A DNA stretch of 64,000 nucleotides from contig NZ_CP141212.1 in NCBI RefSeq assembly GCF_035610345.1, positions 5,976-69,975 of the forward strand, in the 5' to 3' direction. Of this stretch, positions 29,219 through 56,889 are shown piece after piece (the first letter of the stretch is position 1; each line of letters starts with the position of its first letter). A program made the position numbers and the translations under genes. The notes below the pieces were generated by a model. The model worked only from the letters and a program-made list of their open reading frames with translations, was not told where the DNA came from and made no database searches. The stretch is from Sinorhizobium meliloti. Its GTDB lineage: Bacteria > Pseudomonadota > Alphaproteobacteria > Rhizobiales > Rhizobiaceae.

Positions 29219-30139
29219 TCAGCCGGATATCAGCTTCGAGAGCTGTTCGGACACCTTCAGGCCGGACGCTCTGTGAGCTGCAATCACACTGTTGGCCATC
29301 AACATGGCGATAGTCATCGGCCCGACGCCGCCGGGGACCGGCGTAATAGCCGATGCAAAAGGTGCGCACTCCGCGAAGGCGACGTCGCCGACCAGCCTCG
29401 TCCTGTTCTCCCCCTTCTCAGGTGCGGGAACACGATTGATCCCGACATCGATGACGGTGGCGGCCGGCTTCAACCAGTCCGCTTTGACCATTTCGGGCCG
29501 GCCGACCGCAGCGATCACGATATCGGCGTTGCGGCAGATCGAAGCCAGATCGGTGGTGCGGGAATGGGCGATCGTCACGGTCGCATTGGCATTCAGCAGC
29601 AGCTGTGCCATCGGCTTGCCGAAGAGATTCGAACGACCGATGACCAGCGCATTCAGGCCGGAAAGATCGCGACCGTGTACGCGGCGCACAAAGACCATCG
29701 CGCCTGCCGGGGTGCAGGAGATCAGGCCGTTCTCCAGATCGCCGGTTGCGAGCTTTCCGGCATTGGCGACATGCAGGCCGTCGACGTCCTTTTCGGGCCG
29801 GATCGACTGAATGATGGCATCTGCGTCCAGATGTTCCGGCAAGGGCAGTTGCACGAGAATGCCATGGATGCAGTCATCGCCGTTCAGTTGATGCACCAGG
29901 TCCGCAAGCTCCTGCTGCGTCGTTTCCTTCGGCAGCGTATGCTGGACCGAAAAGAAGCCGCACGCCTTGGCCATGCGGCTTTTTGCGCCGACATAGGCAT
30001 GACTTGCGGGATCGTCGCCGACGATAATGACGGCAAGTCCGGTTTTCTTGCCCGTCTGCTGCTGCAGCTCGGCATTTGCGTCTTTTATCGCGCCGTTGAT
30101 GGAAGCCGCTACGGCCTTGCCGTCGATGATCGTCGTCAT
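29219..30139 (-). CDS. folD: FolD bifunctional methylene-THF dehydrogenase / methenyl-THF cyclohydrolase (306 aa)
   Basis: Converts 5,10-methylene-THF to 10-formyl-THF in two steps, NADP-linked. Seen: the catalytic region [13 protein letters not shown] (Lys), [36 protein letters not shown] of the Rossmann domain and C-terminal [15 protein letters not shown]. The start at 30139 gives the normal N-terminus [12 protein letters not shown]. It follows the mgdD/soxG gene by 22 bases in the same direction, so it is almost certainly the last gene of that operon. Its position suits oxidation of the methylene-THF made by the upstream dehydrogenase. Confidence 0.95.
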
Positions 30140-30161
30140 GTTCGCTATCCGACAGTGGGGT

Positions 30162-30695
30162 TCAGCCAAATTCCAGGCCCATTCGGGCAAGGTCGTCCCA
30201 AAGACTTTCTGCAAAGCCGCGCAGCACGATGATCTCGAAGGTTTCCGCTCCGACGCGGGTGACATGGGCCGCGATATGGCCGATCAGCGTCACCGCGGAC
30301 TGCCCGATCGGGAACGCGGACGGGTCGAGGTCGAGCGCTGTGCCTTTTGAAAGCGCGCGATGCGCCATCTTTCCCTCGATCCGGATGCGGACGCGGCCGT
30401 GGCTCTGATCGACACCGGTGGCCCGCGGTTCGAGGGCGGCAAAGAGGCTCTTCATTTCCTGATGCGGGATAGGTGCGTCGCTGATGATGAACCACTGGTC
30501 GGGCGAAACCGGGCGCAAAGCGTGCGGAGCCGCGTCGGTGAACCTGCCGAGAAAGGGCACGATGTCCTCCTGACCCGGCCGGGCGAGAACATGGATGATC
30601 GTGCCTTCCGGAAGTGGCGAGAGCCTGAAATCGGCGAAAGCGACCGTCTGCTTGCTGCCGAGCGCCGGACGAAGGGTTGGACGGAATTCAGACAT
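30162..30695 (-). CDS. mgdD: N-methylglutamate dehydrogenase / sarcosine oxidase gamma-type subunit (177 aa)
   Basis: SoxG-like gamma subunit: [54 protein letters not shown] segments and the C-terminal [25 protein letters not shown] are typical. In heterotetrameric sarcosine oxidases this subunit is structural and helps bind folate. In NMG-pathway bacteria the homologous MgdD completes N-methylglutamate dehydrogenase. The start overlaps the soxA/mgdC stop by 8 bp (30688-30695). The neighbouring mgs genes favour the Mgd assignment; sarcosine oxidase (soxG) is the alternative. Confidence 0.8.
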
Positions 30696-33651
30696 GGAGC
30701 CTCTCGTTCTGAGGGTCGAAGAAAACCGGATTGCAGAGACGTGCAGGCGTGGATTCTCCGTGAAGGCCGCTCCAGACCAGCACCTCTTCGCCGTGACGGT
30801 TGCGGCCGTTCTTGACGAGCGCCAGCGCGATGGTGGATCCGACATGCGGAGAATAGGCGCTGGAGGTGACATAGCCCTCGTCGTTTTCGAGGGTGGCAGC
30901 CGCCCCCTTGGCGAGAATGTGCGAGCCGCTGCGGAACGACTGCTGCGGATCGAGCGGTACGACGCCCACCAGCTGCGGCCGGTCGGGCGCAGTCAGCCCC
31001 TCCCGCTGAAGCATCGCCTTGCCGACGAAATCCGGTTTGCTGGCCGAAACCATTTTCCCGAAGCCCAGATCGGCCGGCACGACGGTCCCGTTGATCTCGT
31101 TGTGCGTCACATGGCCCTTTTCGATGCGCAGGACGCTGAGCGTCTCGACGCCGTAAGGCATGATGCCGTGATCCTTCCCCGCCTCCAGGAGTGCATCGGC
31201 GACGCTTTCCCCGTAGCCGGCCGGAATCGCAAGTTCGTAGGCGAGCTCGCCGGAGAAGGAAATGCGAAAGAGGCAGCCGTGAAGGGCGCCGCCAAACAGC
31301 GAAACCTCCTTCGCTGCAAGATACGGGAACGCCGCGTCGGATATATCCTCGTCGACGATCTTCTGCAGGATCATGCGTGCTTTCGGACCGGCAATCGCCA
31401 TTTGCGCCCACTGGTCGGTGATGGAGGCAAGACGCACGTCCAGCTCCGGCCAGAGCACCTGCGCACAGAATTCGAGGTGGTTCATGACGCCGGCCGCATA
31501 GGCGGTGGTGGTCGTCATGAAAAAGCGGTTCTCCTCGAGTCGGCTCGTCGTGCCGTCGTCGTAGATGAAGCCGTCCTCGCGCAGCATGAGCCCGTAACGC
31601 GCCTTTCCGACGGGCAGTTTGAGGAAGGCGTTGCAGTATACGCGATTGAGAAATTCGGCGGCGTCGCTTCCTGTTATCTCGATCTTGCCGAGCATCGAGA
31701 CGTCGCAGAGTCCGGAATTCTTCCGTACGTTCAGGACCTCTCGCTCGACGCTCTCCCGCCAGGTCCGCTCACCGTTCAGCGGGAACCAGGAGGATCGATA
31801 CCAGAGACCCGTCTCGACGAAGACGGCACCGTGTTTCTTTGCCCAGTCATGAAGCGGCGACTTGCGGACCGGCTGGAAATGATGGCCCGTATGCGCGCCG
31901 GTCAGCGCACCGAAGGATACCGGCGTGTAGAAAGGGCGGAAGGTCGTCGTCCCGACCTCGGCGGGCGAGACGCCGCGTGCCTTGGCGATCAACCCGATCG
32001 CATTGACGTTCGAGAGCTTGCCCTGGTCCGTGGCCATGCCGGTGGTGGTGTAGCGCTTGGCAAGCTCGACATGGCTGTAGCCTTCGCGGACGGCCAGACC
32101 GATATCCCTGAGATGCACGTCGTTCTGGAAGTCGACGAAGGCCTTGTCCTTGACCCCGGGGATCGACCACAGCGGGGCAGGGGAATGTCTGCCTTCGTCG
32201 CCCTCGACCTTGGGAAGGGCGACCGGCGGGCAGGACAGACCGAACTCCTTGACGATGGCCTCAGCTCGTGCGGCGCCTTCCCCGAGGCAGGCAGCGAGGC
32301 CCGTCGTCGCTGCGGCACCGCCCGCAGCCTCGAGCCCCTTCAAGCTCCCGGGCGCGAGAAACGCCGCCTTTTCCGCAGACCAGACGGGCTTGCCGCCCCG
32401 GTGGCAGGCAAGGTGGATGACCGGGTCGAAGCCGCCCGCCATGGCGAGCGCATCGACCGCGATCGTTTCCGTTCGACCGCCGTGATGAACTTCGATCGCC
32501 GAGATCGCCTTGCCGCCCTTGGTGCCGCACACGACCGCTTCCCGGACGAGGCGCGCTTTGCCGCGATAGCCGACGCCGGCCGCAGGGCGGCTGTCGACGA
32601 TGGCGACAACGTCGACGCCTGCGGCTTCGAGGTCCTGCGCGAGCGCATAGCCGCTGTCGTTGGTGGTGAAGATGGCGGTCGCCCGGCCCGGGGCGACACC
32701 GTAGCGGTTGAGATAGGCGCGCATCGCGCCTGCCATCATCACGCCCGGCCGATCGTTGCCGCCGAAGACGAGCGGGCGCTCTTCGGCACCTGTCGCAAGC
32801 AGGGCCTTTCCGGCAACGATCCGCCACAGCCTCTCGACGGGCAGATGGCTGGCGGGCTCCCGCACATGCTTCTGCACGCGCTCGAGCGCGCCGAAGACGT
32901 TGCCGTCATACCAGCCGAAGGCGGTCGTCCGCATCAGGACCCGGACATTCGGCATCGACCGCAATTCATCGCTTGCGTCGCGGGCGAAATCAGCCGCCGC
33001 CTTGCCGCCGATCGTCGCCGTATCGGACAGGAGCGAGCCGCCGGGCAGCGAGCCCTCGTCGACGAGAATGATCCGTGCGCCGGCGCGGCCGGCGGTGAGT
33101 GCAGCGGCTAGCCCCGTCGGGCCGGCGCCGATGACCAGCAGGTCGCAATGCGCCCAGCTCTTCTCATAGGCGTCGGGATCCGCTTCGTAGCTTGCCTTGC
33201 CGAGGCCGGCAGCCTTGCGGATGACCGGTTCGTAGAGCTTCTCCCAGAGCGGCGCCGGCCACATGAAAGTCTTGTAGTAGAAGCCGGCGCCGAGGAAGGG
33301 TGACAGTAGACCGTTCAGCGCACCGATATCGAAGTCGAGCGAGGGCCAGCGGTTCTGGCTCCGCGCCTCGAGGCCCTCGTAGAGCTCCTGCATGGTGGCG
33401 CGCGTGTTCGGCTCGGCGCGGCCGCCGCGGCCAACCGTGACCAGCGCGTTCGGTTCGGCGGCCCCCGCCGTCAGGATCCCGCGGGGCCGGTGGTATTTGA
33501 AGCTGCGTCCGACGAGCATCCGCCCGTTCGCAAGCAATGCCGAAGCGAGCGTGTCGCCTTCGAGGCCCTGCATGGGGCGACCGTCGAAGGTAAAGGAGAG
33601 CGGGACGTTGCGGTCGACGAGACCGCGTTTCGGCAAACGGTAGGAGCTCAT
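30688..33651 (-). CDS. mgdC: N-methylglutamate dehydrogenase / sarcosine oxidase alpha-type subunit (987 aa)
   Basis: Large SoxA-like subunit. An N-terminal ferredoxin-like 2Fe-2S-type fold is present without the iron cysteines; then comes a pyridine-nucleotide-binding FAD/NAD domain (LLVIGAGPTGLAAAL, Gly motif about residues 175-180; ILVDEGSLPGGSLL). The C-terminal half from about residue 610 is a GcvT/aminomethyltransferase-like folate domain (MLGKIEITGSDAAEFLNRVYCN, SGELAYELAI). This architecture delivers formaldehyde from N-demethylation onto tetrahydrofolate. The normal SoxA length and overlap with the small subunits confirm the operon order B-D-A-G. The mgd reading rests on the adjacent mgs/gmaS genes; soxA is the other name. 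Confidence 0.85.
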   Translation of the reverse strand: MSSYRLPKRGLVDRNVPLSFTFDGRPMQGLEGDTLASALLANGRMLVGRSFKYHRPRGILTAGAAEPNALVTVGRGGRAEPNTRATMQELYEGLEARSQNRWPSLDFDIGALNGLLSPFLGAGFYYKTFMWPAPLWEKLYEPVIRKAAGLGKASYEADPDAYEKSWAHCDLLVIGAGPTGLAAALTAGRAGARIILVDEGSLPGGSLLSDTATIGGKAAADFARDASDELRSMPNVRVLMRTTAFGWYDGNVFGALERVQKHVREPASHLPVERLWRIVAGKALLATGAEERPLVFGGNDRPGVMMAGAMRAYLNRYGVAPGRATAIFTTNDSGYALAQDLEAAGVDVVAIVDSRPAAGVGYRGKARLVREAVVCGTKGGKAISAIEVHHGGRTETIAVDALAMAGGFDPVIHLACHRGGKPVWSAEKAAFLAPGSLKGLEAAGGAAATTGLAACLGEGAARAEAIVKEFGLSCPPVALPKVEGDEGRHSPAPLWSIPGVKDKAFVDFQNDVHLRDIGLAVREGYSHVELAKRYTTTGMATDQGKLSNVNAIGLIAKARGVSPAEVGTTTFRPFYTPVSFGALTGAHTGHHFQPVRKSPLHDWAKKHGAVFVETGLWYRSSWFPLNGERTWRESVEREVLNVRKNSGLCDVSMLGKIEITGSDAAEFLNRVYCNAFLKLPVGKARYGLMLREDGFIYDDGTTSRLEENRFFMTTTTAYAAGVMNHLEFCAQVLWPELDVRLASITDQWAQMAIAGPKARMILQKIVDEDISDAAFPYLAAKEVSLFGGALHGCLFRISFSGELAYELAIPAGYGESVADALLEAGKDHGIMPYGVETLSVLRIEKGHVTHNEINGTVVPADLGFGKMVSASKPDFVGKAMLQREGLTAPDRPQLVGVVPLDPQQSFRSGSHILAKGAAATLENDEGYVTSSAYSPHVGSTIALALVKNGRNRHGEEVLVWSGLHGESTPARLCNPVFFDPQNERLHV

Positions 33652-33926
33652 TTGCGCGCCTCCGATCGAGAGCGGTCGGCCGCATCGTCGCACGCCGCAA
33701 TCTCATGCGTCACGGTGTCCCGGGCAACGACGAGCCAGCGGCGGCACCCGGACGTGTGGTGCCAGTATTCTTCGTAGGCGCCGCGCGGGTTGTCGCGCAG
33801 GTAGACGTAGTCGAACCAATCGGCCGAATCCGCGTCAGCCGCCGGTCGCGACAGGGCCGCGCCCTTGATGGTGAATTCTTCCTTGGGTCTTCGCCCGCAA
33901 TTCGGGCAGGGCACGAGGCTTGCCAT
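33648..33926 (-). CDS. mgdB: N-methylglutamate dehydrogenase / sarcosine oxidase delta-type subunit (92 aa)
   Basis: SoxD-like small subunit. Zinc ligands are visible: CPNCG at residues 7-11 and the HHTSGCRRW motif (His56/57 and Cys61). The family folds around one zinc ion and links the large subunits. It overlaps the start of mgdC (ATGA-type, 33648-33651). The ATG at 33926 gives the normal length of about 92-100 residues. The downstream sequence ends with basic residues ADRSRSEARK. Confidence 0.87.
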   Translation of the reverse strand: MASLVPCPNCGRRPKEEFTIKGAALSRPAADADSADWFDYVYLRDNPRGAYEEYWHHTSGCRRWLVVARDTVTHEIAACDDAADRSRSEARK

Positions 33927-33951: not shown

Positions 33952-35202
33952 TCAGTGAAGGTTGGGCTGAGCGCCCTGTCCCTTTTCGTCGATGAGGAAG
34001 CCGCGCTCGAAACGGTCGAGACGAAAAGCTGCGGCGGTCTTCTGTGGCGCGCCCCGGGCGAGAAGGTGGGCGAAGCAGAATCCCGAGGCGGGAGTGGCCT
34101 TGAACCCTCCATAGCACCAGCCGGCATTCAGGTAGAGATTGTCTATCGGGGTGCGGTCGATGATCGGCGAGCCGTCCATGCTCATATCCATGATGCCGCC
34201 CCAGGAACGCAGCACGCGCACACGGGACAAGGCCGGGATCATCGCCTTGCCGGCTTCCGCCACGTGTTCCACGGTCGCGAGGTTGCCGCGCTGGGCATAG
34301 GAATTGTAGCCGTCGATATCGCCACCGAAGACCAGGCCGCCCTTGTCCGATTGCGAAACGTAGAAATGCCCGGCGCCGAACGTGACCACGCCGTCGATGA
34401 AGGGCTTCAGGCCTTCCGACACGAAGGCCTGGAGCACGTGGCTCTCCAACGGCAGGCGCAATCCGGCCATTTCGGCGACCTGCGAGGAATTGCCGGCCGC
34501 CGCCAGCGCCAGCTTTCCACAGCCGACGAAGCCGCGGTTGGTCTCGACGCCGGTGACGCGCCCGTTTTCCCGCCTGATCCCGGTCACTTCGCAATTCTGG
34601 ATGATGTCGACGCCGCGGCTGTCTGCGCCGCGGGCATAGCCCCAGGCGACGGCATCGTGACGCACGGTGCCGCCGCGGCGCTGCAGGAGCCCGCCCTGAA
34701 TGGGGAAGCGGGCATTGTCGAAATCGAGGAAGGGCAGCATCTTGCGCACTGCCGCCCGATCGAGAAGGTCCGCATCCACCCCGTGCAGCCGCATCGCATT
34801 GCCGCGCCGCGTGTAGGCGTCGCGCTGAGCGTCGGAATGGAAGAGGTTGAGAACGCCACGCTGCGAGACCATGGCATTGAAGTTGAAATCCTGCTCCAGC
34901 CCCTCCCAGAGCTTCATGGAGAGCTCGTAGAACGGATTGTTGCCGGGGAGCAGGTAGTTCGAGCGGATAATGGTCGTGTTACGGCCGACATTGCCCGAAC
35001 CGATATAGTTCTTTTCCAGCACCGCGACATTGGCGATGCCGAATTCCTTTGCGAGATAGTAGGCCGTCGCCAGGCCATGGCCACCGCCGCCGACGATGAT
35101 CACGTCGTAATGGGGCTTCGGGTCGGGCTGGCGCCATGCCGGCGTCCAGTTCCGGTTGCCGCGCAGACCGTTCAGGAGGATGGAAAGTGCTGAGTAGCGC
35201 AT
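33952..35202 (-). CDS. mgdA: N-methylglutamate dehydrogenase / sarcosine oxidase beta-type subunit (416 aa)
   Basis: SoxB-like FAD/FMN-containing catalytic subunit. The N-terminal dinucleotide motif DVIIVGGGGHGLATAYYLA lies at about residues 33-51; the DAO-type fold continues through VAVLEKNYIGSGNVGRN, SWGGIMDMSMDGSPIID and the end WCYGGFKATPASGFCFAHLL. Its 416 residues match the family. It heads the operon and is divergent from the glxA regulator across a 94-base gap (35203-35296). By genetic context it oxidises N-methylglutamate to glutamate; sarcosine to glycine is the alternative (soxB). Confidence 0.88.
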   Translation of the reverse strand: MRYSALSILLNGLRGNRNWTPAWRQPDPKPHYDVIIVGGGGHGLATAYYLAKEFGIANVAVLEKNYIGSGNVGRNTTIIRSNYLLPGNNPFYELSMKLWEGLEQDFNFNAMVSQRGVLNLFHSDAQRDAYTRRGNAMRLHGVDADLLDRAAVRKMLPFLDFDNARFPIQGGLLQRRGGTVRHDAVAWGYARGADSRGVDIIQNCEVTGIRRENGRVTGVETNRGFVGCGKLALAAAGNSSQVAEMAGLRLPLESHVLQAFVSEGLKPFIDGVVTFGAGHFYVSQSDKGGLVFGGDIDGYNSYAQRGNLATVEHVAEAGKAMIPALSRVRVLRSWGGIMDMSMDGSPIIDRTPIDNLYLNAGWCYGGFKATPASGFCFAHLLARGAPQKTAAAFRLDRFERGFLIDEKGQGAQPNLH

Positions 35203-35296: not shown

Positions 35297-36271
35297 ATGA
35301 CAGCATCTTCCGACAGCAAGAACGTGCAGAGGATCGGATTTTTGCTGGTGCGCAATTTTGCCCTGATGAGCTACGCGTCGGCGACGGAGCCCCTGCGTGC
35401 GGCCAATCTTCTTGCCGGCCGGCCGCTCTACCAGATCGTCCCGCTTGCGCAGGGAGGAGGGACCGTCTCTTCATCCTCCGGGCTGTCGGTCGGCTGTGCG
35501 GATCTGGAGAGTGAAGCGGAAGCCTGCCATACCGTCTTCGTTTGCGCGGGCGGAGAGCCAACCGACTGGGCGGATACGTCTGCATCCCACACGACGCTCC
35601 GGCGGCTCTCGCGCCTCGGTATTCGCGTCGGCGGCATATCGAGCGGAGCCTTCGTGCTTGCCGCTGCGGGACTGCTCGACAGCCGCGACTTCACCATTCA
35701 CTGGGAGCACGCGCCTGCGCTGAAGGAAGCATTTCCCCATCTCAACCCGAGACATGCGCGCTTCGTGCTGGACGGTGGAATTGCCACCTGCGGCGGCGGG
35801 GTGGCGCCGCTCGACATGATGCATGCGATGATCGCCGAACGCCTGGGAACCGACTTCGCCCGCCGGGTCAGCGACTGGTATCTGCACGCGGCCGTCGCCG
35901 AGCCGGCGGCGCCGCAGCGCGGTTCGGCCGCAGAGCGGTTCGGTACCAATCATCCCGCCCTGCTTGCGGTTCTCGAGAAGATGGAAACGGCGATCGAACG
36001 GCCGCTCGACCGGACTGTCATGGCGCGTCTGGCCGGGGTGAGCCCGCGGCATCTCGACCGGCTTTTCAGGGAGCATCGCGGTGCCGGCTTTCTCGACACC
36101 TACCGGGAGATCCGGCTGCGGCATGCCCGCCGGCTCCTGCAGCAGAGCCCGCTCTCTATCCCGGAGATCGCCTACGCCACGGGCTTTTCGAGCCCCGCAC
36201 ATTTTTCGAATGCGTTCAAACGCCTGTTTTCGGAGACTCCGGGAAGCCTGCGCCGCCGCAACGGTTCATGA
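35297..36271 (+). CDS. glxA: GlxA-family AraC-type transcriptional regulator (324 aa)
   Basis: Two-domain regulator: an N-terminal class-I glutamine amidotransferase/DJ-1-like sensory domain (residues 8-190: FLLVRNFALMSYASATEPLRAANLL, VGGISSGAFVLAAAGLL, CGGGVAPLDMM) and a C-terminal AraC-type double HTH (about 215-320: MARLAGVSPRHLDRLFREHRG, IAYATGFSSPAHFSNAFKRLF). Relatives include GbdR-like regulators of glycine betaine and methylated-amine genes. It is divergent from the mgdABCD operon and transcribed toward glxB. It probably activates one or both in response to a methylated amine, but the ligand is inferred. Confidence 0.9.
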   Translation: MTASSDSKNVQRIGFLLVRNFALMSYASATEPLRAANLLAGRPLYQIVPLAQGGGTVSSSSGLSVGCADLESEAEACHTVFVCAGGEPTDWADTSASHTTLRRLSRLGIRVGGISSGAFVLAAAGLLDSRDFTIHWEHAPALKEAFPHLNPRHARFVLDGGIATCGGGVAPLDMMHAMIAERLGTDFARRVSDWYLHAAVAEPAAPQRGSAAERFGTNHPALLAVLEKMETAIERPLDRTVMARLAGVSPRHLDRLFREHRGAGFLDTYREIRLRHARRLLQQSPLSIPEIAYATGFSSPAHFSNAFKRLFSETPGSLRRRNGS

Positions 36272-36292: not shown

Positions 36293-36314
36293 TAGTAAGA
36301 AAAAAATATTCTCC
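36293..36314 (+). promoter_or_regulatory. AT-rich motif upstream of glxB (set a)
   Basis: An AT-rich island, GTAAGAAAAAAATATTCTCC, stands out from the GC-rich surroundings, 65 bases before the glxB start. The AGAAA...ATATT core recurs upstream of five other units in this region, including the xre-cupin gene. It may be part of a shared operator or promoter; no obvious -35/-10 pair was assigned. Confidence 0.4.
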
Positions 36315-36378
36315 ACAGTTGATGGTCCCGCGACTGCGTGCTAGCATCGTTCCATGCACGAATGGAGGGACTACGCGA

Positions 36379-37284
36379 ATGTGCGGCATTGTTGGTTTGT
36401 TTCTGAAAGACAGCAGGCTCGAGCCGCAGCTTGGCGAGCTTCTTTCGGACATGTTGATCACCATGACGGACCGTGGTCCGGACTCGGCCGGGCTGGCCAT
36501 TTACGGCTCGGCTACCGAGGGGAAGGCGAAGGTGACGATCCAGTCTGCGAAGCCCGAGATTGACTTCGCAGACCTTGAACGGGATCTCGCCGAAGCAGGC
36601 GTGCCGGCACGCGTTGCCGTCAAGAGCACCCATGCGGTCGTTGGGATCGCAGCCGCCAGGCTCGCGGATGTGCGTGCCGTTCTCGCCGCCATCCGTCCGG
36701 ATGTGCGCATCATGGGCGCCGGCGACAGTGTCGAAATCTACAAGGAAGTCGGCCTGCCGAAGGATGTCGTCGCACGGTTCGATGTGCGCTCGATGGGCGG
36801 TTCGCATGGCATCGGCCACACCCGAATGGCTACGGAATCGGCCGTGACCACACTTGGCGCACACCCGTTTTCCACCGGGTCGGATCAGTGCCTCGTGCAT
36901 AACGGATCGTTGTCGAACCATAACAATCTGCGCCGGGAACTGATCCGTGAAGGAATTGCCTTCGAGACGCAGAACGACACGGAGGTCGCTGCCGCGTACC
37001 TCACGGCGGAAATGGCCAAGGGTAAGGATCTCGGACAGGCCCTGACCGGCGCGCTCGACGACCTCGACGGTTTCTTTACCTTCGTCGTCGGTACCAAGTC
37101 GGGCTTCGGCGTCGTGCGTGACCCGATCGCGTGCAAGCCGGCGGTCATGGCTGAAACGGATCGCTATGTCGCATTCGGTTCCGAATACCGGGCGCTGGTC
37201 AACCTGCCAGATATCGAGAGCGCGCGCATCTGGGAGCCAGAGCCCGCGACCGTTTACTTCTGGGATCATCAGAAGGCCGCCTGA
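36379..37284 (+). CDS. glxB: N-methylglutamate synthase subunit A, class II glutamine amidotransferase-like (301 aa)
   Basis: The sequence begins MCGIVGLF, placing the Cys2 Ntn nucleophile at the N-terminus after Met removal, as in GltB/GlmS amidotransferases. Further motifs: ITMTDRGPDSAGLAIY, GIGHTRMATESAV, HNGSLSNHNNLRREL and DLDGFFTFVVG. This is the glxB product I recall from S. meliloti and corresponds to MgsA, which with glxC and glxD forms N-methylglutamate synthase, making N-methylglutamate from gamma-glutamylmethylamide or glutamate and methylamine. Three genes follow closely (36, 14 and 81 bases). The MgsA assignment is from pathway context. Confidence 0.85.
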   Translation: MCGIVGLFLKDSRLEPQLGELLSDMLITMTDRGPDSAGLAIYGSATEGKAKVTIQSAKPEIDFADLERDLAEAGVPARVAVKSTHAVVGIAAARLADVRAVLAAIRPDVRIMGAGDSVEIYKEVGLPKDVVARFDVRSMGGSHGIGHTRMATESAVTTLGAHPFSTGSDQCLVHNGSLSNHNNLRRELIREGIAFETQNDTEVAAAYLTAEMAKGKDLGQALTGALDDLDGFFTFVVGTKSGFGVVRDPIACKPAVMAETDRYVAFGSEYRALVNLPDIESARIWEPEPATVYFWDHQKAA

Positions 37285-37320: not shown

Positions 37321-38007
37321 ATGCCTGTTATTGATCTCGCCACCACGCCGCTGCGTGAATTCAATAGGTCCCTCCATAATATTCAGCAGGGCTCGAACGA
37401 TCTGTCCTTCGAAGTCGCCAATCCGCGCGGCAGCCATGCGGTCGCCGTCGGGATCGACGGTCCCGTCGTGGTCGATGTGAACGGCTCCGTCGGCTACTAT
37501 TGCGCCGGCATGAACGACGGCGGAACGGTCAGGGTCCATGGCTCGGCAGGCCCGGGTGTCGCGGAAAACATGATGTCCGGCACAGTCGTCATCGAGGGCG
37601 ATGCCAGCCAGTATGCGGGCGCGACCGGCCGCGGCGGCCTGCTTGTGATTAAGGGCAACGCGGCGTCGCGCTGCGGCATCTCGATGAAAGGCATCGATAT
37701 CGTCGTCCATGGAAATATCGGCCATATGTCGGCTTTCATGGGCCAGTCGGGCCACCTCGTCGTGCTCGGCGACGCGGGCGATGCCTTGGGTGACAGCCTC
37801 TACGAGGCCAAGCTCTTCGTACGCGGCACGGTCAAGAGTCTCGGCGCCGATTGCATCGAGAAGGAGATGCGTCCGGAGCACCTGCAAAAGCTGGCCGAGC
37901 TCCTGGAAAAGGCCGATGTCAAGGATGTCCGTCCGGAAGAATTCAAGCGCTACGGCTCGGCCCGCAAGCTCTACAATTTCAACATCGACAACGCAGACGC
38001 GTATTAA
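37321..38007 (+). CDS. glxC: N-methylglutamate synthase subunit B, GltB C-terminal-like GXGXG protein (228 aa)
   Basis: Right-handed beta-helix protein of the GXGXG family, the structural counterpart of the C-terminal domain of GltB. Repeated Gly patterns are visible: GGTVRVHGSAG, MSGTVVIEGDASQYAGATGRGGLLVIKGNAASRCG, GIDIVVHGNIGH and GHLVVLGDAGDALGDSLYEA. It is separate here, whereas in glutamate synthase it is fused to the amidotransferase and FMN domains. It would stabilise the complex and form the ammonia or methylamine tunnel. It corresponds to MgsB in NMG-pathway bacteria. Confidence 0.87.
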   Translation: MPVIDLATTPLREFNRSLHNIQQGSNDLSFEVANPRGSHAVAVGIDGPVVVDVNGSVGYYCAGMNDGGTVRVHGSAGPGVAENMMSGTVVIEGDASQYAGATGRGGLLVIKGNAASRCGISMKGIDIVVHGNIGHMSAFMGQSGHLVVLGDAGDALGDSLYEAKLFVRGTVKSLGADCIEKEMRPEHLQKLAELLEKADVKDVRPEEFKRYGSARKLYNFNIDNADAY

Positions 38008-46523: not shown

Positions 46524-46660
46524 GGCCGATAGAAGCCGAAACCGGCTTACTCCCACGCCCCATTACCGCCCATCGCATCAGAGCCGGAAGCCGCACCAAC
46601 TCCCGCGAATCCCCGCCTTAACCACGCGACAAAAATAATCGGGCCCGCTTGCTTCCCTGC

Positions 46661-46694: not shown

Positions 46695-46719
46695 GTATGG
46701 GAAAAAAAGAGGGAACGAA

Positions 46720-47853: not shown

Positions 47854-47864
47854 GGGAGGCGGCC

Positions 47865-49432: not shown

Positions 49433-49443
49433 AGGCCGTTCCA

Positions 49444-49515
49444 GGAAAACCGTCCAACAGTTTTCCGCCCAGAAATGCGTGGTTTCAAACACTTGGATCG
49501 TTCGACGAAACGATC
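49444..49515 (+). promoter_or_regulatory. two inverted repeats in the dmmB-dmmC gap
   Basis: GGAAAAC (49450 region) pairs with GTTTTCC nearby, and GATCGTT (49496-49502) pairs with AACGATC (49509-49515). The first hairpin follows the dmmB stop within 15 bases; the second precedes the next gene by about 30. They could act as weak attenuators, RNase processing sites or operator sequence. The 111-base gap is longer than the tight gaps around it. Confidence 0.35.
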
Positions 49516-49543
49516 AATCGGGCCGACCAAGAGGAGAACGGGC

Positions 49544-50584
49544 ATGGCAATCGCCTTCAAGCAGGAAACCTTCCGGGACGATTTCAGCTATCGCAACAGT
49601 CCGGAAAACATCCGGCGCTTTCCGTTTCCCTTCGACCGCGACGAATACATGTACGCGGTGAACATGGAACCGCACGTGAAGGGGCAGAAGGGCACCGCCT
49701 TCGAAAGCCTGATCGACGTCGATGAGCACTACGTCGCCGAGATGCAGGATCGGGCTCTGGTTCTGAAAGAGGACCCGCTGCGCTACCAGGCGTTGCCACA
49801 CATGATGACGGCACAATGGGATACCCTGGAACTTCTGATGGAGGAGCAGGCCGCCGGCTTTCCCGAACATTTCACGCTCACCAGGAACGGCGATCAATGG
49901 CGCTGGATCAACCGGCCGCTCGGCATCGACGACACCTTCACCTTCGGCGATCGCTCGACGCTTCCCTATGAACCGCTCGAATACATCACCCGCCAGGCGC
50001 AGGGGGATTTCTGCATCGTCGACCAGCGCGACGGCAATCTCTGGATGGATGCCGGAATGGTGACGACCCAGGCCGACTGGTCGCTCGATTTCGACATCGG
50101 CATGAACTTCATGGAATGGCACGGCCCGGTGCCGCTCGCTCATCAGATGGGCGTCTTCGACCGCGCCCTTAAATTCCTCCTGAATCTGCAGCAGGGCAAG
50201 CCTACGCGCCGTTTCAACTGGACGATGACGATCAATCCGCGCCTCGATACCAGCCCGGAAAACTACCATAAATGGGGTCCGGACCGCGCCACGGTCACGC
50301 CAGAAAACGTCGGCGAGAAGGTGCATTTGCGCGTCGAGGTGCAGAGCCTGTGGCGCCTGCCGCGCTCGAACGCCATCCTCTTCGTCATCCGCTGCTATCT
50401 GATGAATATGAATGAGCTCGTGACGGTCCCGAAATGGGCGCGCCGCTTTCCGCGCGTGCTCAGCACGCTGCCGCCGGAACTCATCGATTACAAGGGCCTG
50501 ACGCGCTATCGCCAGACCACGATCGACTGGCTTACGAAATTCGACGACGGCGCGCCGACCAGTCCCGGCACATTCCCGGATTGA
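49544..50584 (+). CDS. dmmC: heme-dependent oxidative N-demethylase subunit (DUF3445 family, 346 aa)
   Basis: DUF3445/heme-dependent N-demethylase family protein. Recognisable stretches: [84 protein letters not shown] and [26 protein letters not shown]. This is the likely catalytic subunit of dimethylamine monooxygenase, turning dimethylamine into methylamine and formaldehyde. The start at 49544 has GAGGAG upstream. An N-terminal extension of ORF-type sequence before it was discarded. tmm begins 65 bases after its stop. Confidence 0.82.
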
Positions 50585-50649
50585 CGCCGCTTCCAGCGCC
50601 AAGACGACTGCATGCAATTGCAACTTCCACAAATCAAGGGGAATGCGTC

Positions 50650-51987
50650 ATGACAAGAGTTGCCGTCATCGGTGCCGGTCCATCGGGCCTCGCCCAGTTG
50701 CGGGCCTTCCAGTCGGCCGCCCAGAAGGGTGCCGAGATTCCGGAGATCGTCTGCTATGAAAAGCAGTCCGACTGGGGAGGGCTGTGGAACTACACCTGGC
50801 GCACCGGACTGGACGAATATGGAGAGCCGGTGCATGGCAGCATGTATCGCTACCTCTGGTCTAACGGTCCGAAGGAGTGCCTGGAATTCGCGGACTACAC
50901 CTTCGAGGAGCATTTCGGCAAGCCGATCGCCTCCTATCCGCCGCGCGCGGTGCTGTGGGATTATATCAAGGGCCGTGTGGAGAAGGCGAATGTGCGCGAC
51001 TGGGTGCGTTTCAATACCCCGGTGCGCATGGTGCACTTCGACGAACAGACGAAGAAGTTCACGGTTACCGCTCATAACCGCCTCGAAGACCGCATGTATG
51101 ACGAGGAATTCGACTATGTGGTCGTTGCGAGCGGCCACTTCTCGACACCGCACGTCCCTTATTTCGAAGGCGTGAAAACCTTCAACGGCCGCGTTCTGCA
51201 CGCCCACGATTTCCGCGATGCGCTGGAATTCAAGGGTAAGGACGTTCTCATTGTCGGCCGGAGCTACTCGGCAGAGGATATCGGTTCGCAATGCTGGAAG
51301 TATGGGGCGAAATCGGTGACGACGAGCTACCGCTCAAAGCCGATGGGCTTCAACTGGCCGGAAAACTTCGAGGAACGGCCGCTACTGACGAAGCTCGAAA
51401 ACAAGACGGCCCGTTTCGCGGACGGCTCGACAAAGGAAGTGGACGCGCTGATCCTGTGCACCGGCTATCAGCACCATTTTCCGTTCCTGCCCGATGAACT
51501 CAGGCTCAAGACCGCCAACCGCCTTTGGGCCGACCATCTCTACAAGGGCGTGGTCTTCGACAAGAATCCGCAGCTCTTCTACATCGGCATGCAGGATCAG
51601 TTTTACACCTTCAACATGTTCGACGTGCAGGCCTGGTGGGCGCGCGACGTCATGATGGGCCGCCTCGAGCTGCCGCCGGAAGAGGAGCTGAAGGCCAATT
51701 TCGACATGTGGCGCGCCCGCGAGGAAACGCTCGAACATGCCGAAGAGATGATCTGGTATCAGGGCGACTACGTGAAGGAACTGCTCGCCGAAACCGATTA
51801 TCCGAGCTTCGATATCGAAGGGGTCAACCGGACCTTCATGAAGTGGGAGCACCACAAGGCGGAAAACATCATGGGTTTTCGCGACAATGCCTATCGGTCG
51901 CTGATGACGGGCAATATGTCGCCAAAGCATCACACGCCTTGGGTGGAAGCGCTTGACGACTCCCTGGAGGAATATCTGCGCGCGTGA
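50650..51987 (+). CDS. tmm: trimethylamine monooxygenase (flavin-containing, 445 aa)
   Basis: Class B flavoprotein of the Tmm group; oxidises trimethylamine to trimethylamine N-oxide with NADPH and O2. FAD motif [11 protein letters not shown] (residues 7-17), the FMO fingerprint [11 protein letters not shown] (178-188), and NADPH motif [12 protein letters not shown] near 201-212 with Tyr206 in the position of the catalytic/gating Tyr207 I recall from Roseovarius Tmm. [13 protein letters not shown] also matches Tmm proteins. AAGGGG precedes the ATG. It follows dmmC closely and is convergent with tdm across a RIME/IS remnant region. Confidence 0.92.
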
Positions 51988-52126
51988 CGATCTTCGCCTC
52001 GGTGTATGCCCTTCCCACCTGTGGGAGGGGCAAAATCGCGCCTGCGCGTCCGAGGTACACACTTTTCGTGGAAGTGCTTCAAGGCCTGTTGAGATTCGGG
52101 CCACCCGCCGCCGCTTGTTCGATTTC

Positions 52127-52242
52127 CTCATTCCTGTGCTTGTCACAGGAATCCAGTCAGACCAGGTCCTTGGGCTGAAAGAGCTCTTCTCGCGCCGCAG
52201 ACGCGGCGCTGCTCTCATCCCTGTGACAAGAACAGGGATGAG
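52127..52242. repeat. RIME-like rhizobial intergenic palindrome
   Basis: The left arm (52127-52153, containing CCTGTGCTTGTCACAGG) and right arm (52216-52242, CCCTGTGACAAGAACAGGG) are about 27 bp each and nearly complementary, so the segment can fold into a large hairpin. The core is the TTGTCACAGG palindrome that I associate with Rhizobium/Sinorhizobium-specific intergenic mosaic elements. It lies 140 bases downstream of tmm and before the transposase remnant. It may stabilise the tmm 3' end. The rest of the 510-base gap (51988-52498) carries only the remnant below. Confidence 0.75.
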
Positions 52243-52345
52243 GACGGAGGAGAGGTTGCAGTCCTCCTAAAAGTCGCTGTAATCCTTCGAGCTGCTGCAT
52301 GTTTTGTCCATTGATCGGCTACGATCAAAGGACACATGCAATGGC

Positions 52346-52456
52346 GTGCGGTCGGTACTCAAGGAGTTCAAGGGCATCGCCATGCGTGCCGACAAAACCG
52401 ACCAGAGCTTCAACGCCATTATCCATCTTGCTGCAGCCGTCATAAACTCAAAATGA
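52346..52456 (+). pseudogene. C-terminal scrap of an IS5-type transposase
   Basis: The frame encodes VLKEFKGIAMRADKTDQ, then SFNAIIHLAAAVINSK and a stop. This is the typical C-terminus of IS5-group transposases common in rhizobia (consensus like RRIAMRSDKTDESFAAMIYLAAAVINSR). Only about 36 codons survive, with no catalytic residues and no start. It is a dead insertion-sequence remnant in the intergenic DNA between tmm and tdm, consistent with past transposition or rearrangement at this junction. Confidence 0.75.
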
Positions 52457-52498
52457 ATCTCAACAGGCCTTAGTCTAGAGAGGATTACCCAAATCGGT

Positions 52499-54868
52499 TC
52501 AGGAGCGCGGCCGCTTCTTCTGCGGATCGTAGTGCGACAGCGGCACGACGACTGCGGGCAGGCGCTTCTGATGACCGTCGAGCTTGCCGATCTCCACCTG
52601 CGTGCCGACCGTCGCATGCGTAACGTCGATCCGGGCAAGCGCGATCGTCTTGCCGAGGACCGGTGAACGGGTGGCACTGGTGATGACGCCGATCTGTGCG
52701 CGTCCGACATGCACGCAGTCGCCGTGGCCGACCGCCTCGTTCGCCTGTATGTCGAGGCCGACCATCAAGTGGCGCGGGTTTTCCTTGCGGCGGATCAGCG
52801 CTTCGCGGCCGATGAAATCGTCCTGCTTGGACTTCAGCGGCACCGTGAAGCCGATACCGGCCTCGAACGGGTCGGTCTGATCGTCGAAGTCGTAATGAGC
52901 GAAGATCAGGCCGGCCTCGATGCGAACCATGTCGAGCGCTTCCAGCCCCATCGGCCTCAGCCCATGCGGCTCGCCGGCCCGCCAGACCGCGTCGAAAACG
53001 GTCAGGGCGTCTTTGGGATGGCAGAATATCTCATAGCCGAGCTCGCCGGTATAGCCGGTGCGCGAGACGACGACGGGGGCGCCCTCGAAGCCTCCGATGC
53101 GACCGACTGCGAAGCGGAACCATTCGAGCTCACCGATCGTGGGCTGACGCGGTCCCGTCCAGACGGTCTCCTTGAGGATGTCGCGGCTCTTCGGGCCCTG
53201 AACGGCAATATTGTGCATCTGGTCGGTCGAGGAGCGCACCCAGGCCTTGAAGCCTTTCTTCTCCGCCTGTTCTCGCAGCCATATGCCGCTGTAATCGTCG
53301 CCGCCGATCCAGCGGAAGTTCCTGTCGCCGAGACGGAAAAGGGTGCCGTCGTCGATCATGCCGCCATGCTCGTAGCACATGGCGGAATAGACGACCTGCC
53401 CGGTCGAAAGCTTGCGCACGTCGCGTGTCAGGCAATATTGCAGCAATTCCTCGGCATCCGGACCCGTGACCTCGAACTTGCGCAACGGCGAAAGATCGAT
53501 GACTGCCGCGCGTTCCCGGCAGGCCCAGTATTCCTCGACCGGTCCCGCCGACGAAAACCGGTTCGGCAGCCAATAGCCGCGATATTCAGCGTAGTCTCGC
53601 GTCAGCGCGGAAAAGCGGGGGTGAAAAGCGGTTTCACGCGTCAGTTCGGGCTCGGCATCGGGTGTCATGCGATAGGCTACCGCTCGTGAGAATTGCTCTT
53701 TTCCGGAAAAGGTCCGGACGTGAATGTCGGTCGGATTCCAGCCGTTTGCCGCGTCGATATCGTCTGGGCAGGAGGAGGAGACGCAGACAAGGTCGGTCAG
53801 GGCTCGCATCAGCACGTAGTCGCCCGGACGCGACCAGGGCTCATCGAGATAGAGCTGATTGTTGTTGTCGATATTGGTGTTGTAGAAATAGTTGAGCGCT
53901 TCCCAGCCTTTGCGGCCGGGGATGCCATAAGGCGCAAGCGCCGCGTTGAAATTGTCCGTACAGTTGACGTGGCCGGGATAGCCCATGTCATCGTAATAGC
54001 GCGAATTGCAGGCGGTGGCGAAAGCGTCGTGACGGCCAACCGTGTCCTGTACGATCTCCACCAGCGGCTCGAAATCGCGATCGAAAGCCTTGGAGGGGAG
54101 GCCCGGCGCCGGATAGCTGCGCCCGAGCAGGGTACGGGTGACGGTCGAGTCGAGAGCAAGGTCGAGGCCCTTGTCGATCTTGCGTGCGGCAAATGCCTGA
54201 AAGTCCGTGCACTGGCGGCCATAGACGTCGATGATCTGTATGAAATCTCCGGCTCGCACGAAATACGCCGACGCGGTTGCAGCCTTGATGCGGATGTCCT
54301 CGATCGGATCTGCCAGCGGCTCCGGCAAGGCGGAGGAATAGTCGCGGACCACCCTGCTGCGGCGGACCTTGATCTCAATGGGTGTTGCCGTGTCCTGTGC
54401 CTCGGGCGACATCGCCTCTGCAGGTGCGGCAACGATCAGCAGCCCCTTCAGCGCGATCGTGAATTCGACCCTGCTGCCCGGCGTGGACCGTTCCCCGAAG
54501 ATGCGCACGGCGCCGGCCGTGGCCAGATCCGCACCGCGGCGCCGAAGCGCGCTGCGAATACGCAGCGCGCCCGCCTCTTCGCGGGAGAGAATGGTCTTGA
54601 GGCCATCGGCGGCATTGGTGAACGCCGCGCCGAGGCCTGCCGCCTGGAAGCGGCCGCTTTCGTCAACGAAGGAAAGTTCGCATGCCTGGCCGCCCTCGGC
54701 ATCGGTGACCGTCACCAGGTCTCCCGCTTCGACGCGTAGGACCAGTGAGCCGCCACCCTTGCATCGGTATCGTTCCGTGTCCTTCGGCAGCGCCGGAATG
54801 CCCGGATAGCGGATGATGCTCGCCGAAACCGGCCTCCCCCCAAGCATCCCAGGATGGCGAACTTCCAT
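52499..54868 (-). CDS. tdm: trimethylamine-N-oxide demethylase (Tdm, 789 aa)
   Basis: Two-part enzyme: an N-terminal DUF1989 region (two related halves, about residues 1-180 and 190-395) fused to a C-terminal GcvT/aminomethyltransferase domain (about 415-789, with VIDLSPLRKFEVTGPDAEELLQYCL and VVVSRTGYTGELGYEIF). This is the Tdm layout, which cleaves trimethylamine N-oxide to dimethylamine and formaldehyde. Cys287, Cys303 and Cys367 (spacing 16 and 64) and Asp222 match, in spacing, the zinc ligands and catalytic Asp I recall for Methylocella Tdm. The start at 54868 has a GAGGGTGAT site. The GcvT domain likely hands the formaldehyde to tetrahydrofolate. Confidence 0.9.
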   Translation of the reverse strand: MEVRHPGMLGGRPVSASIIRYPGIPALPKDTERYRCKGGGSLVLRVEAGDLVTVTDAEGGQACELSFVDESGRFQAAGLGAAFTNAADGLKTILSREEAGALRIRSALRRRGADLATAGAVRIFGERSTPGSRVEFTIALKGLLIVAAPAEAMSPEAQDTATPIEIKVRRSRVVRDYSSALPEPLADPIEDIRIKAATASAYFVRAGDFIQIIDVYGRQCTDFQAFAARKIDKGLDLALDSTVTRTLLGRSYPAPGLPSKAFDRDFEPLVEIVQDTVGRHDAFATACNSRYYDDMGYPGHVNCTDNFNAALAPYGIPGRKGWEALNYFYNTNIDNNNQLYLDEPWSRPGDYVLMRALTDLVCVSSSCPDDIDAANGWNPTDIHVRTFSGKEQFSRAVAYRMTPDAEPELTRETAFHPRFSALTRDYAEYRGYWLPNRFSSAGPVEEYWACRERAAVIDLSPLRKFEVTGPDAEELLQYCLTRDVRKLSTGQVVYSAMCYEHGGMIDDGTLFRLGDRNFRWIGGDDYSGIWLREQAEKKGFKAWVRSSTDQMHNIAVQGPKSRDILKETVWTGPRQPTIGELEWFRFAVGRIGGFEGAPVVVSRTGYTGELGYEIFCHPKDALTVFDAVWRAGEPHGLRPMGLEALDMVRIEAGLIFAHYDFDDQTDPFEAGIGFTVPLKSKQDDFIGREALIRRKENPRHLMVGLDIQANEAVGHGDCVHVGRAQIGVITSATRSPVLGKTIALARIDVTHATVGTQVEIGKLDGHQKRLPAVVVPLSHYDPQKKRPRS

Positions 54869-54939
54869 ATCACCCTCGCGGCCGAATGTTGGGCCCTGCC
54901 CGGGATCATGCTGGCAAAATACCCCACCGAAGTAAAGGA

Positions 54940-54969
54940 GATATATTGACTATGAAGAAACATTCTTCA
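54940..54969. promoter_or_regulatory. motif set f: operator-like site between tdm and the APC permease
   Basis: GGAGATATATTGAC (about 54938-54950) is followed by a perfect inverted repeat TGAAGAA-ACA-TTCTTCA (54953-54969). It lies in the divergent gap of 236 bases (54869-55104), upstream of both the tdm and permease genes. Along with sites a to e it forms a set of AT-rich, partly palindromic elements in front of methylated-amine genes. Confidence 0.55.
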
Positions 54970-55104
54970 CTATGCATAAACGGCCGGATCTGAATTCAAT
55001 GCATAAATGGGTGACCAAAAACATCGGGCCGGCTGCCGTGGGAGGCATGTTCAGGGAGACGTATCGAAGAACACGTCCGGAACAATTAAAAGGGGAATTC
55101 AGCA

Positions 55105-56889
55105 ATGACAGATGTGGTGAACGCCGGCATTGCTGCCGGCACCGAGGGAAAGCTTATACGCGCGCTCGATTGGAAGGGCGCTTTCTGGGTGGCAGCTGGC
55201 GTGCCGCCGCTCGTGCTTTTCTCCATCGGCGGCATTGCCGGCACGACCGGCAAGCTGGCCTTTGCGGTCTGGATCATTTCGATGATCATGGGCTTCCTGC
55301 AATCCTTCACCTATGCGGAAATCGCCGGGATGTTCGCCAACAAGTCCGGCGGCGCCTCCGTCTATGGAGCGACCGCATGGCTGCGCTATTCGAAATTCAT
55401 CGCTCCGCTTTCCGTCTGGTGCAACTGGTTCGCGTGGTCGCCGGTGCTTTCGCTCGGCTGCGTGATCGCCGCGGGTTATATCCTCAACGCCCTCTTCCCG
55501 ATTCCTGCGGTGGATTCGCAGGCGGTGCTCGACTGGATCGGCGCCCATGCCGCCTCCGTCAGCGCCGATAACCCCCGTGTCGCCGAGTATATCGCGGCCC
55601 ATGCCGGCACCGCGCCGGAAGATGCCGTCAAGGCGGTTCTCGCAGCCGACGGCGTAGCGGCGCTGACGCCTATGATCCGCAACTGGTCGCTGGTCAGCTT
55701 CAGCATTCCCTTCCTCGCCACGGCCAATATCAACGCCACATTCCTGATCGGCGGCATCCTGATGCTGATCATCTTCGCGATCCAGCATCGGGGCATTGCC
55801 GGGACGGCCAGCGTTCAGAAGTGGCTCGCTATGCTCGTCCTCATTCCCTTGCTGATCATCGGCATCTATCCGATCGTCAGCGGCCATATCGTTGCCTCCA
55901 ACGTCACCGGCCTCGTGCCTCCGACGGTGGCCTATTCCGGCGAGGACGGCACCTGGAGCAATGGCGGCTGGACGCTCTTTCTCGGCGGTCTCTATATTGC
56001 CGCCTGGTCGACTTACGGGTTCGAAACGGCGGTCTGCTATACGCGCGAACTGAAGAACCCCCGGACCGATACCTTCAAGGCCATCTTCTATTCCGGCCTC
56101 GTCTGTTGCCTGTTCTTCTTCCTCGTACCCTTCGCCTTCCAGGGCGTGCTTGGCCATGCCGGCATGCTGGCGCCCGGCATCATCGACGGCACGGGTGTGG
56201 CCGAGGCGCTCGGCGGCCTGATCGGCGCCGGCCGTATCGTCACCCAGCTTCTCGTCGTCCTGATGATTCTCGCGCTCTTCCTGGCCATCATGACGGCGAT
56301 GGCCGGCTCCTCGCGCACGCTTTACCAGGGTTCGAAGGACGGTTGGCTGCCGAAATATCTCGACCATGTGAACGAGAACGGCGCGCCGACCCGGGCCATG
56401 TGGACCGACTTCGCTTTCAATCTGTTCCTGCTTGCCATCGCCTCGGATGTCGGCGGCTACTTCTTCGTGCTCGCCGTCTCCAATGTCGGCTACATCATCT
56501 TCAACTTCCTGAACCTCAACTCCGGCTGGATCCACCGTATCGACTCCGCCCATATCGAGCGGCCCTGGAAGGCGCCTACCTGGCTGATTGGCCTGAACAC
56601 CGTGCTGGCCTTCGTCAACGCGCTCTTCCTGGGTGCCGGCGCTAAGGTCTGGGGCTACTCCAATGCGCTGTGGGTCGGTTTCATCTTCGCCGCGCTGATC
56701 CTGCCGGTCTTCGCCTATCGCCATTATTTTCAGGATCGCGGCAGGTTCCCGCTCGAAGCCATGGAGGACCTCGGTCTCTCCGGACAGAACCTCGGGGTCA
56801 GGAAAGCGGGCATGTTACCCTATCTGGCGCTCGGCGCAGGCCTCGCCATCGTGCTGTTCGCCAACTGGTTCTTCCAGCTGCCGGCCTGA
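55105..56889 (+). CDS. APC-superfamily permease, probable amine uptake (594 aa)
   Basis: Large APC-fold transporter of about 12 to 14 helices. Segments include FWVAAGVPPLVLFSIGG, YAEIAGMFANKSGGASVYGATAWLRY (early core), the LYIAAWSTYGFETAVCYTRELKNPRTDTFKAIFYSG motif and the IMTAMAGSSRTLYQGSKDGWLPKYL region. It is larger than the 465-residue permease at 42025, with a soluble insert near residues 130-190. AAGGGG precedes the ATG. It is divergent from tdm, so trimethylamine, its N-oxide or another methylated amine is a plausible cargo; other APC cargos are amino acids, and the assignment is contextual. Confidence 0.82.
   Translation: MTDVVNAGIAAGTEGKLIRALDWKGAFWVAAGVPPLVLFSIGGIAGTTGKLAFAVWIISMIMGFLQSFTYAEIAGMFANKSGGASVYGATAWLRYSKFIAPLSVWCNWFAWSPVLSLGCVIAAGYILNALFPIPAVDSQAVLDWIGAHAASVSADNPRVAEYIAAHAGTAPEDAVKAVLAADGVAALTPMIRNWSLVSFSIPFLATANINATFLIGGILMLIIFAIQHRGIAGTASVQKWLAMLVLIPLLIIGIYPIVSGHIVASNVTGLVPPTVAYSGEDGTWSNGGWTLFLGGLYIAAWSTYGFETAVCYTRELKNPRTDTFKAIFYSGLVCCLFFFLVPFAFQGVLGHAGMLAPGIIDGTGVAEALGGLIGAGRIVTQLLVVLMILALFLAIMTAMAGSSRTLYQGSKDGWLPKYLDHVNENGAPTRAMWTDFAFNLFLLAIASDVGGYFFVLAVSNVGYIIFNFLNLNSGWIHRIDSAHIERPWKAPTWLIGLNTVLAFVNALFLGAGAKVWGYSNALWVGFIFAALILPVFAYRHYFQDRGRFPLEAMEDLGLSGQNLGVRKAGMLPYLALGAGLAIVLFANWFFQLPA

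Follow-up and report, generated by a model that had tools for sequence, protein, structure and literature searches.

Whether methylated amines feed nodule-type rhizobia in soil and the rhizosphere is the question raised by positions 29219-56889 of a 64-kb stretch of the Sinorhizobium meliloti chromosome (the window), where a marine-type pathway for trimethylamine (TMA) is placed, as a wholly losable module, atop a methylamine core. The cluster is very probably a catabolic island for methylated amines, made of two units with a proposed shared regulon. The enzyme set itself is known and common, and what is new concerns regulation and transport; the shared motif, likely regulator and transporter module look little studied in the open-licence PMC literature. 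The motif, an XRE-cupin regulator and an unnamed permease module are testable handles on methylamine entry and sensing, and near-identical strains with and without the TMA module form a natural knock-out pair in which to pose the question.

Gene content and predicted pathway

The first-pass annotation had proposed a complete route from TMA to formate within the region, and its list is borne out by family scores, Pfam domains and open frames: gene calling and family searches found every named enzyme encoded, in frames without internal stops, and by sequence an intact gene of the right family appears at each step from TMA through N-methylglutamate to formate. The methylamine core and its folate enzymes comprise the following genes.

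29219-30139, minus strand: folD, methylene-tetrahydrofolate (methylene-THF) dehydrogenase/cyclohydrolase (NCBIfam NF010785, 485.2 bits against a cut-off of 396; start from the annotation of S. meliloti Ak57)
30162-30695, minus strand: soxG-type gamma subunit of N-methylglutamate dehydrogenase (TIGR01375, 135.3 bits, just under the cut-off of 143.95; gene order)
30688-33651, minus strand: soxA-type alpha subunit of N-methylglutamate dehydrogenase (TIGR01372, about 1478 bits against 1164)
33648-33926, minus strand: soxD-type delta subunit (open frame and annotation of the Ak57 counterpart; no hidden Markov model scan)
33952-35202, minus strand: soxB-type beta subunit of N-methylglutamate dehydrogenase (TIGR01373, 752.6 bits against 529.45; PDB 1vrq_B, 437 bits)
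36379-37284, plus strand: glxB (mgsA), glutamine amidotransferase-type subunit of N-methylglutamate synthase (Pfam GATase_6/7; N-terminal MCGIVG)
37321-38007, plus strand: glxC (mgsB), GXGXG subunit (Pfam GXGXG)
38022-39350, plus strand: glxD (mgsC), glutamate synthase-type subunit binding flavin mononucleotide (Pfam Glu_synthase, 290 bits)
39432-40739, plus strand: gmaS (glnT), gamma-glutamylmethylamide synthetase (TIGR03105, type III glutamine synthetase/GmaS, 670.5 bits against 469.6; PDB 7cql, 629 bits)
45639-46523, plus strand: purU, formyl-THF deformylase (TIGR00655, 326.9 bits against 285.95)

The TMA module follows to the right.

46584-56903, no strand: TMA module dmmDABC-tmm-tdm-tmoP, lacking in strain K101 (edges set by short shared words)
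46720-47853, plus strand: dmmD, GcvT-like THF-binding partner (Pfam GCV_T, 207 bits; placed ahead of dmmABC)
47865-48470, plus strand: dmmA, dimethylamine monooxygenase subunit (NF041259, 118.5 bits against a cut-off of 60)
48467-49432, plus strand: dmmB, reductase subunit (Fer2, NAD_binding_1 and DmmA-like_N domains)
49544-50584, plus strand: dmmC, haem-dependent N-demethylase subunit (PF11927, 236 bits; PDB 5lte, 504 bits)
50650-51987, plus strand: tmm, trimethylamine monooxygenase (NF058570, 852.6 bits against 675; PDB 8b2d, 6hns, 5ipy)
52499-54868, minus strand: tdm, trimethylamine N-oxide (TMAO) demethylase (NF053776, 1282.2 bits against 1100; PDB 9q59; Cys287/303/367)
55105-56889, plus strand: tmoP, TMAO permease (NF053774, 841.5 bits against 690)

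From the left, the genes form a minus-strand block (folD, soxG, soxA, soxD, soxB), a plus-strand block (regA, of AraC type, then glxB, glxC, glxD and gmaS), a second minus-strand block (hyp1, hyp2, an APC-type permease and hyp3) and a second plus-strand block (the XRE-cupin gene regX, purU, dmmD, dmmA, dmmB, dmmC and tmm), followed by tdm on the minus and tmoP on the plus strand. The three small unannotated proteins by the first permease (40853-41885 and 44004-44321) and the shared motif were absent from the first-pass annotation. Its folD stands as a gene, with the start at about 30139 by the Ak57 annotation in place of 30265, and its GcvT-like partner of the dimethylamine enzyme is retained under the more precise identity of DmmD, the first of four dmmDABC genes lying side by side in that order on one strand (46720-50584).

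Curated NCBIfam cut-offs are exceeded by Tmm, Tdm, TmoP, GmaS, DmmA, SoxA, SoxB, PurU and FolD, with DmmC, DmmB, DmmD and GlxB/C/D assigned by Pfam domain and gene order; for the last of these, the GATase, GXGXG and Glu_synthase domains of MgsABC occur in three adjacent genes next to gmaS. Relatives in the PDB exist for Tdm, Tmm, GmaS, SoxA, SoxB and DmmC, the nearest to Tmm being bacterial flavin-containing monooxygenases/Tmm and the solved relative of SoxA and SoxB being 1vrq. Cys287, 303 and 367 of Tdm, at spacings of 16 and 64, are invariant in eight Tdm sequences and are presumably the zinc ligands of its metal site. GmaS keeps 9/9 checked residues of the Rhodovulum enzyme (RhGmaS), including Trp300 and Ala48, which rules out glnT as a plain glutamine synthetase; passages of PMC7948447 describe these two as standing in for the Glu and Asp that are catalytic in true glutamine synthetase.

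From the roles of these families, TmoP would import TMAO and Tmm would oxidise TMA to the same compound; Tdm would then split TMAO into dimethylamine and a one-carbon unit, with DmmABC converting dimethylamine to methylamine and DmmD handing the one-carbon unit to THF. GmaS is predicted to join methylamine to glutamate, MgsABC to form N-methylglutamate from the product, and the SoxBDAG-type MgdABCD to regenerate glutamate with methylene-THF; FolD and PurU would yield formate, to be oxidised by a formate dehydrogenase encoded elsewhere in the genome (alpha subunit at C1:3090550, 969.9 bits against a cut-off of 666.25). The net gain in this direction of flux would be ammonia-level nitrogen and reducing power.

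Comparison with known systems

The same enzymes and pathway (Tmm, Tdm, DmmDABC, GmaS-MgsABC and MgdABCD), with an AraC regulator by mgd, are described for Ruegeria pomeroyi DSS-3 in passages of PMC5520151 and PMC13390433; the regulators of its TMA cluster are TmaR and TmoR. In contrast to R. pomeroyi, the cluster here has in-cluster TMAO uptake by TmoP, together with the XRE-cupin regulator, the shared near-palindrome and the extra permease module. Passages of PMC4543880 report linked tmm, tdm and dmmDABC with N-methylglutamate genes around tmm2 in Paracoccus aminophilus JCM 7686, in which dmm and tmm mutants were tested; unlike here, the genes lie on plasmid pAMI6 and tmm is present twice. 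P. aminophilus has a serine cycle. Aminobacter, of the same order (Hyphomicrobiales), shares the set down to folD, purU and fdh, and A. aminovorans KCTC 2477 has its demethylation genes on the chromosome and its N-methylglutamate genes on a plasmid, two sets that lie side by side here (passages of PMC8235418).

The rarity implied for the full set does not survive comparison with annotated public records: R. etli CFN42, on plasmid p42e (protein identity 43-96%), and S. meliloti Ak57 (95.7% DNA identity) each carry it in one region, and these and further loci rule out its being unusual in rhizobia. R. etli differs in having minCDE between tmm and tdm, regX directly before glxB and no permease module in the stretch examined. 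Among 72,556 plasmid records, 298 gave a DNA match to 29219-51987, and in one case the match spanned at least 80% of the query. Tdm relatives (E 1e-3 or better) are encoded in at least 584 of 595 pattern-matched stretches of genome contigs; the best 80 of these at least 584 are 60-68% identical to the query, many coming from Rhizobium, Shinella, Mesorhizobium and Aminobacter and many having dmm, tmm, gmaS or sox genes adjoining.

A methylamine core and a losable TMA module

Contiguity of the genes is not a matter of chance: Tmm, Tdm and DmmA exceed their cut-offs in one and the same set of 10 among the 32 genus genomes (this one included), all inside the 17 that are GmaS-positive. Across a family sample of 151 genomes, Tmm occurs in 23, all GmaS-positive, DmmA in 25, of which 24 are GmaS-positive, and GmaS in 45; a Tmm-positive subset nested in the GmaS-positive genomes is as expected of a feeder pathway. 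Fisher tests on this co-occurrence ignore relatedness and so overstate independence among related genomes.

Strain K101 gives the boundary of the module. Its DNA match to the window ends at 46539, just after purU, and picks up again ahead of xfp at 56919; about 40 bp separate the two parts, and identity flanking the gap is 98.9% over 27.7 kb at the left and 98.3% at the right; C101 and M103 have the same left match end, the junction itself having been read in K101. The module occupies the identical position in Ak57, G019 and G025, which are less similar than K101, so the simpler interpretation is that the K101 line lost it. On sequence comparison the island is two units, a methylamine core and, ahead of it in the pathway, a TMA module that in the genus is found only with the core and is losable whole.

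Three further observations concern the module and its flanks. In G014 and G016 (loci L039/L040 and L041/L042), tmm is 67-68% and tdm 58% identical to the window genes, with dmmDABC and tmoP at 90-96%; these loci are mosaics, in which tmm and tdm have perhaps been exchanged. G023 (L027) has the TMA module on a contig of its own, with a further purU copy (85%) adjoining tmoP. In the unannotated K101 record (L001), the matches to folD and to xfp are both split in two (at about 12.0-12.3 kb and 29.4-30 kb), possibly through frameshifts or assembly errors.

A shared operator-like motif

A near-palindrome, GAA-N7-TTC, lies upstream of glxB, purU and dmmD, and in weaker form ahead of the permease operon.

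36295-36315, plus strand: operator-like motif before glxB (score 31.9; exact core match)
44405-44425, plus strand: weaker operator-like motif between hyp3 and regX, 84 bp before hyp3 (score 15.6; 13-16 in K101, Ak57, G025 and G019)
45515-45535, plus strand: operator-like motif before purU (score 28.9; exact core match)
46677-46697, plus strand: operator-like motif before dmmD (score 29.3; exact core match)

The exact form GAATAT-N3-TTTC occurs three times in the window (before glxB, purU and dmmD); the complete 6.63-Mb genome has ten copies of it and 0 of a control pattern. A position matrix, for which the window and five same-genus loci supplied the ten training sites, gives four window positions a score of 12 bits or above, every one inside the cluster; five mononucleotide shuffles of the window (320 kb) gave two matches at that level and none at 20 bits or more. 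Three window sites were used in training, so other genera provide the better test, and the cross-genus counts leave out Sinorhizobium as well as genes whose start was unmapped or which had less than 120 bp upstream (glxB 6/25, dmmD 1/34, tdm 15/86, tmoP 13/55). There the motif precedes glxB in 15/19 cases (0.25 expected from shuffles) and dmmD in 23/33 (0.40 expected), with its centre 70-76 bp before glxB in 11 of the 15 matches and 29-37 bp before dmmD in 19 of the 23. Upstream of other genes it is occasional (folD 2/19, tmm 3/48, gmaS 1/31) or absent, both at six control genes (glxC 0/25, glxD 0/26, dmmA 0/34, dmmC 0/35, soxB 0/20, soxA 0/20) and at regA (0/5).

For purU the presence of a site follows gene order. 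Among 28 scorable purU genes the motif reaches 12 bits in 5/8 that do not have gmaS directly upstream and in 0/20 that do; the five detached genes with a site (K101, Ak57, G025, G019, G017) are all of this genus, and the three without it are those of L027 and L123 and one of the two in L143. The pattern is consistent with a need for purU to have its own site after leaving the gmaS operon.

Several results weigh against a shared regulon defined by this motif. In other genera the site is partial before tmoP (14/42) and tdm (11/71) and absent before purU (0/8). An initial dyad search gave nothing above shuffles (three promoters at most), and with one mismatch allowed the window has four matches, a number reached by 9 of 100 shuffles, so that the window count alone is weak and it is the genome-wide and cross-genus counts that support the motif. 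A sigma-70 scan found one weak site against 4.4 expected; sigma-70 promoters placed by eye alongside the motifs accordingly lack support. Lastly, and counting also against RegX as the binder, regX is missing from the stretch examined in 7 of 13 loci, three from Rhodobacterales and four from Mesorhizobium, and in most of these seven the motif still precedes glxB.

Candidate regulators of the cluster

Two regulators are encoded in the cluster.

44709-45443, plus strand: regX, XRE-cupin regulator, proposed motif binder (HTH_3 and Cupin_2)
35297-36271, plus strand: regA, GlxA/GbdR-type AraC regulator by mgd (NF052371, 240.7 bits, below the cut-off of 480; positional match to TmaR)

With a threshold of E 1e-40, regX is matched in 17/17 GmaS-positive genus genomes and 0/15 others. 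The regA gene is divergent from soxB, 94 bp apart, and adjoins the mgd operon. An XRE gene figures among the recurring genes of Rhodobacteraceae methylamine clusters in a figure legend of PMC7574528, so the association of XRE genes with such clusters is not new.

The strongest competing account takes the motif as the site of the TmaR-like RegA, with one master activator running the whole cluster as reported for R. pomeroyi. Passages of PMC13390433 describe TmaR binding at the tdm, dmm, gmaS-mgs, mgd and its own promoters, and the discussion of that paper gives its effector as still unidentified; the words motif, XRE and cupin are absent from its text. In the same direction, loci L138, L140 and L169 have the motif before tdm and glxB and no regX in the stretches examined, the dmmD site being weak in L138 (12.2) and scoring 6.5 in L169. 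Against it, the motif is absent at promoters where TmaR also binds, the counts before soxB and regA being those given above and the maxima over all loci scored being 5.5 and 6.8. This account is unlikely, if by no means far-fetched. RegX is favoured over RegA, and is from sequence the most likely binder of the motif, because of its co-occurrence with GmaS, because a near-palindrome suits an XRE dimer and because the motif is missing at the mgd and regA promoters. The operons glxBCD-gmaS, hyp3/permease, purU and dmmDABC would form one regulon through the GAA-N7-TTC operator, and mgd would probably be under separate control by the TmaR-like RegA.

The permease module

Four genes on the minus strand between gmaS and regX constitute the transport part of the proposed regulon.

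40853-41116, minus strand: hyp1, small permease-module protein (recurs beside the permease; DUF6677 hint below cut-off)
41127-41885, minus strand: hyp2, membrane-anchored, without a Pfam family (model resembles TtfA and CCDC47)
42025-43422, minus strand: APC-type permease, ethanolamine-permease-like (TIGR00908, 182 bits, below the cut-off of 382; AA_permease)
44004-44321, minus strand: hyp3, small permease-module protein (recurs beside the permease; hydrophobic stretch 25-82)

The permease is a candidate importer of small amines or amides. This unannotated module keeps company with gmaS, as judged from 18 hyp2 matches, of which that in G063 is marginal (8.6e-4) and in a genome that is not GmaS-positive, and those in G098 and G200 are on contigs other than the one with gmaS. 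The structural model of Hyp2 had no Foldseek match at E 0.001 or below, and its VIA-align likeness to TtfA and CCDC47 leaves other folds possible.

Taken jointly, the regulatory and transport proposals would have a previously undescribed repressor or activator, RegX, act through GAA-N7-TTC to define a methylamine regulon, both in rhizobia and in some of the Rhodobacterales. Among its members would be a new system for taking up methylamine or gamma-glutamylmethylamide (the APC permease and three small partners), with the TtfA/CCDC47-like Hyp2 as the permease's assembly or activity partner; this combination is put forward tentatively, at somewhat short of an even chance.

Other readings of the cluster

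Another possibility is that the Sox-type subunits make up a conventional sarcosine oxidase in a cluster for breaking down glycine betaine or choline, methylated amines being incidental. Its alpha and beta subunits do exceed the cut-offs of sarcosine oxidase models, and the AraC protein scores against GbdR, below cut-off. The genome's other SoxA, however, scores higher on the same model (1640.7 against about 1478 bits), and the cluster SoxA is nearer to 13 SoxA copies from other loci (52-93% identity), 11 of them with gmaS in the stretch examined, than to the second SoxA of its own genome (46%); the SoxA tree includes a single copy of this second type and no characterised Mgd, and so cannot prove a clade. 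A role as the genome's main sarcosine oxidase is unlikely on these sequence comparisons, and the betaine or choline reading as a whole is highly improbable. A last reading sees in the cluster a decaying remnant that some strains retain without using it, as absence of the TMA module from K101 and the shared match end in C101 and M103 might suggest; it is the least probable of all, given the lack of internal stops in the window genes, the retained key residues and motif positions conserved across genera.

A second Tdm locus

A second Tdm is encoded at C1:693299-695569 (1158 bits, over the cut-off); at 63% identity to the window Tdm, and with its own ATP-binding cassette (ABC) transporter genes, it is ruled out as a near copy of the window gene. 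Its locus (L088, C1:689317-696660) runs in the order OpuAC-type binding protein, ABC ATPase, ABC permease, Tdm and AraC gene. By model class the ABC genes belong to the choline/betaine/proline group; they may be tmoXWV-like with TMAO as substrate, a name suggested because Tdm adjoins them and because a few further loci have genes like them beside Tdm. The stretch, of 7.5 kb, is replaced by 76 bp in K101, the query matches C101, M103 and Ak57 in its left-flank part alone, and no other case of a second Tdm over the cut-off occurs among the 32 genus genomes; the locus looks like a strain-specific gain.

Flanking regions

A sulfatase-family protein (window 27212-29107) adjoins folD on the left and is in the same place in K101 and G019. 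To the right of the island (window 56992-62180) are genes for a phosphoketolase, an NAD-dependent epimerase-type dehydrogenase and an L-arabinonate dehydratase, apparently unrelated sugar genes. Window 443-18887 is replaced by about 240 bp at the matching K101 place, a large strain difference adjoining the 5S rRNA gene. CP090106.1 (pSymB, 3.7 Mb) and NZ_CP104131.1 (pK101a, 3.5 Mb), which are called plasmids, match this contig bearing 5S rRNA and tRNA-Met genes and may be chromosomes mislabelled as plasmids.

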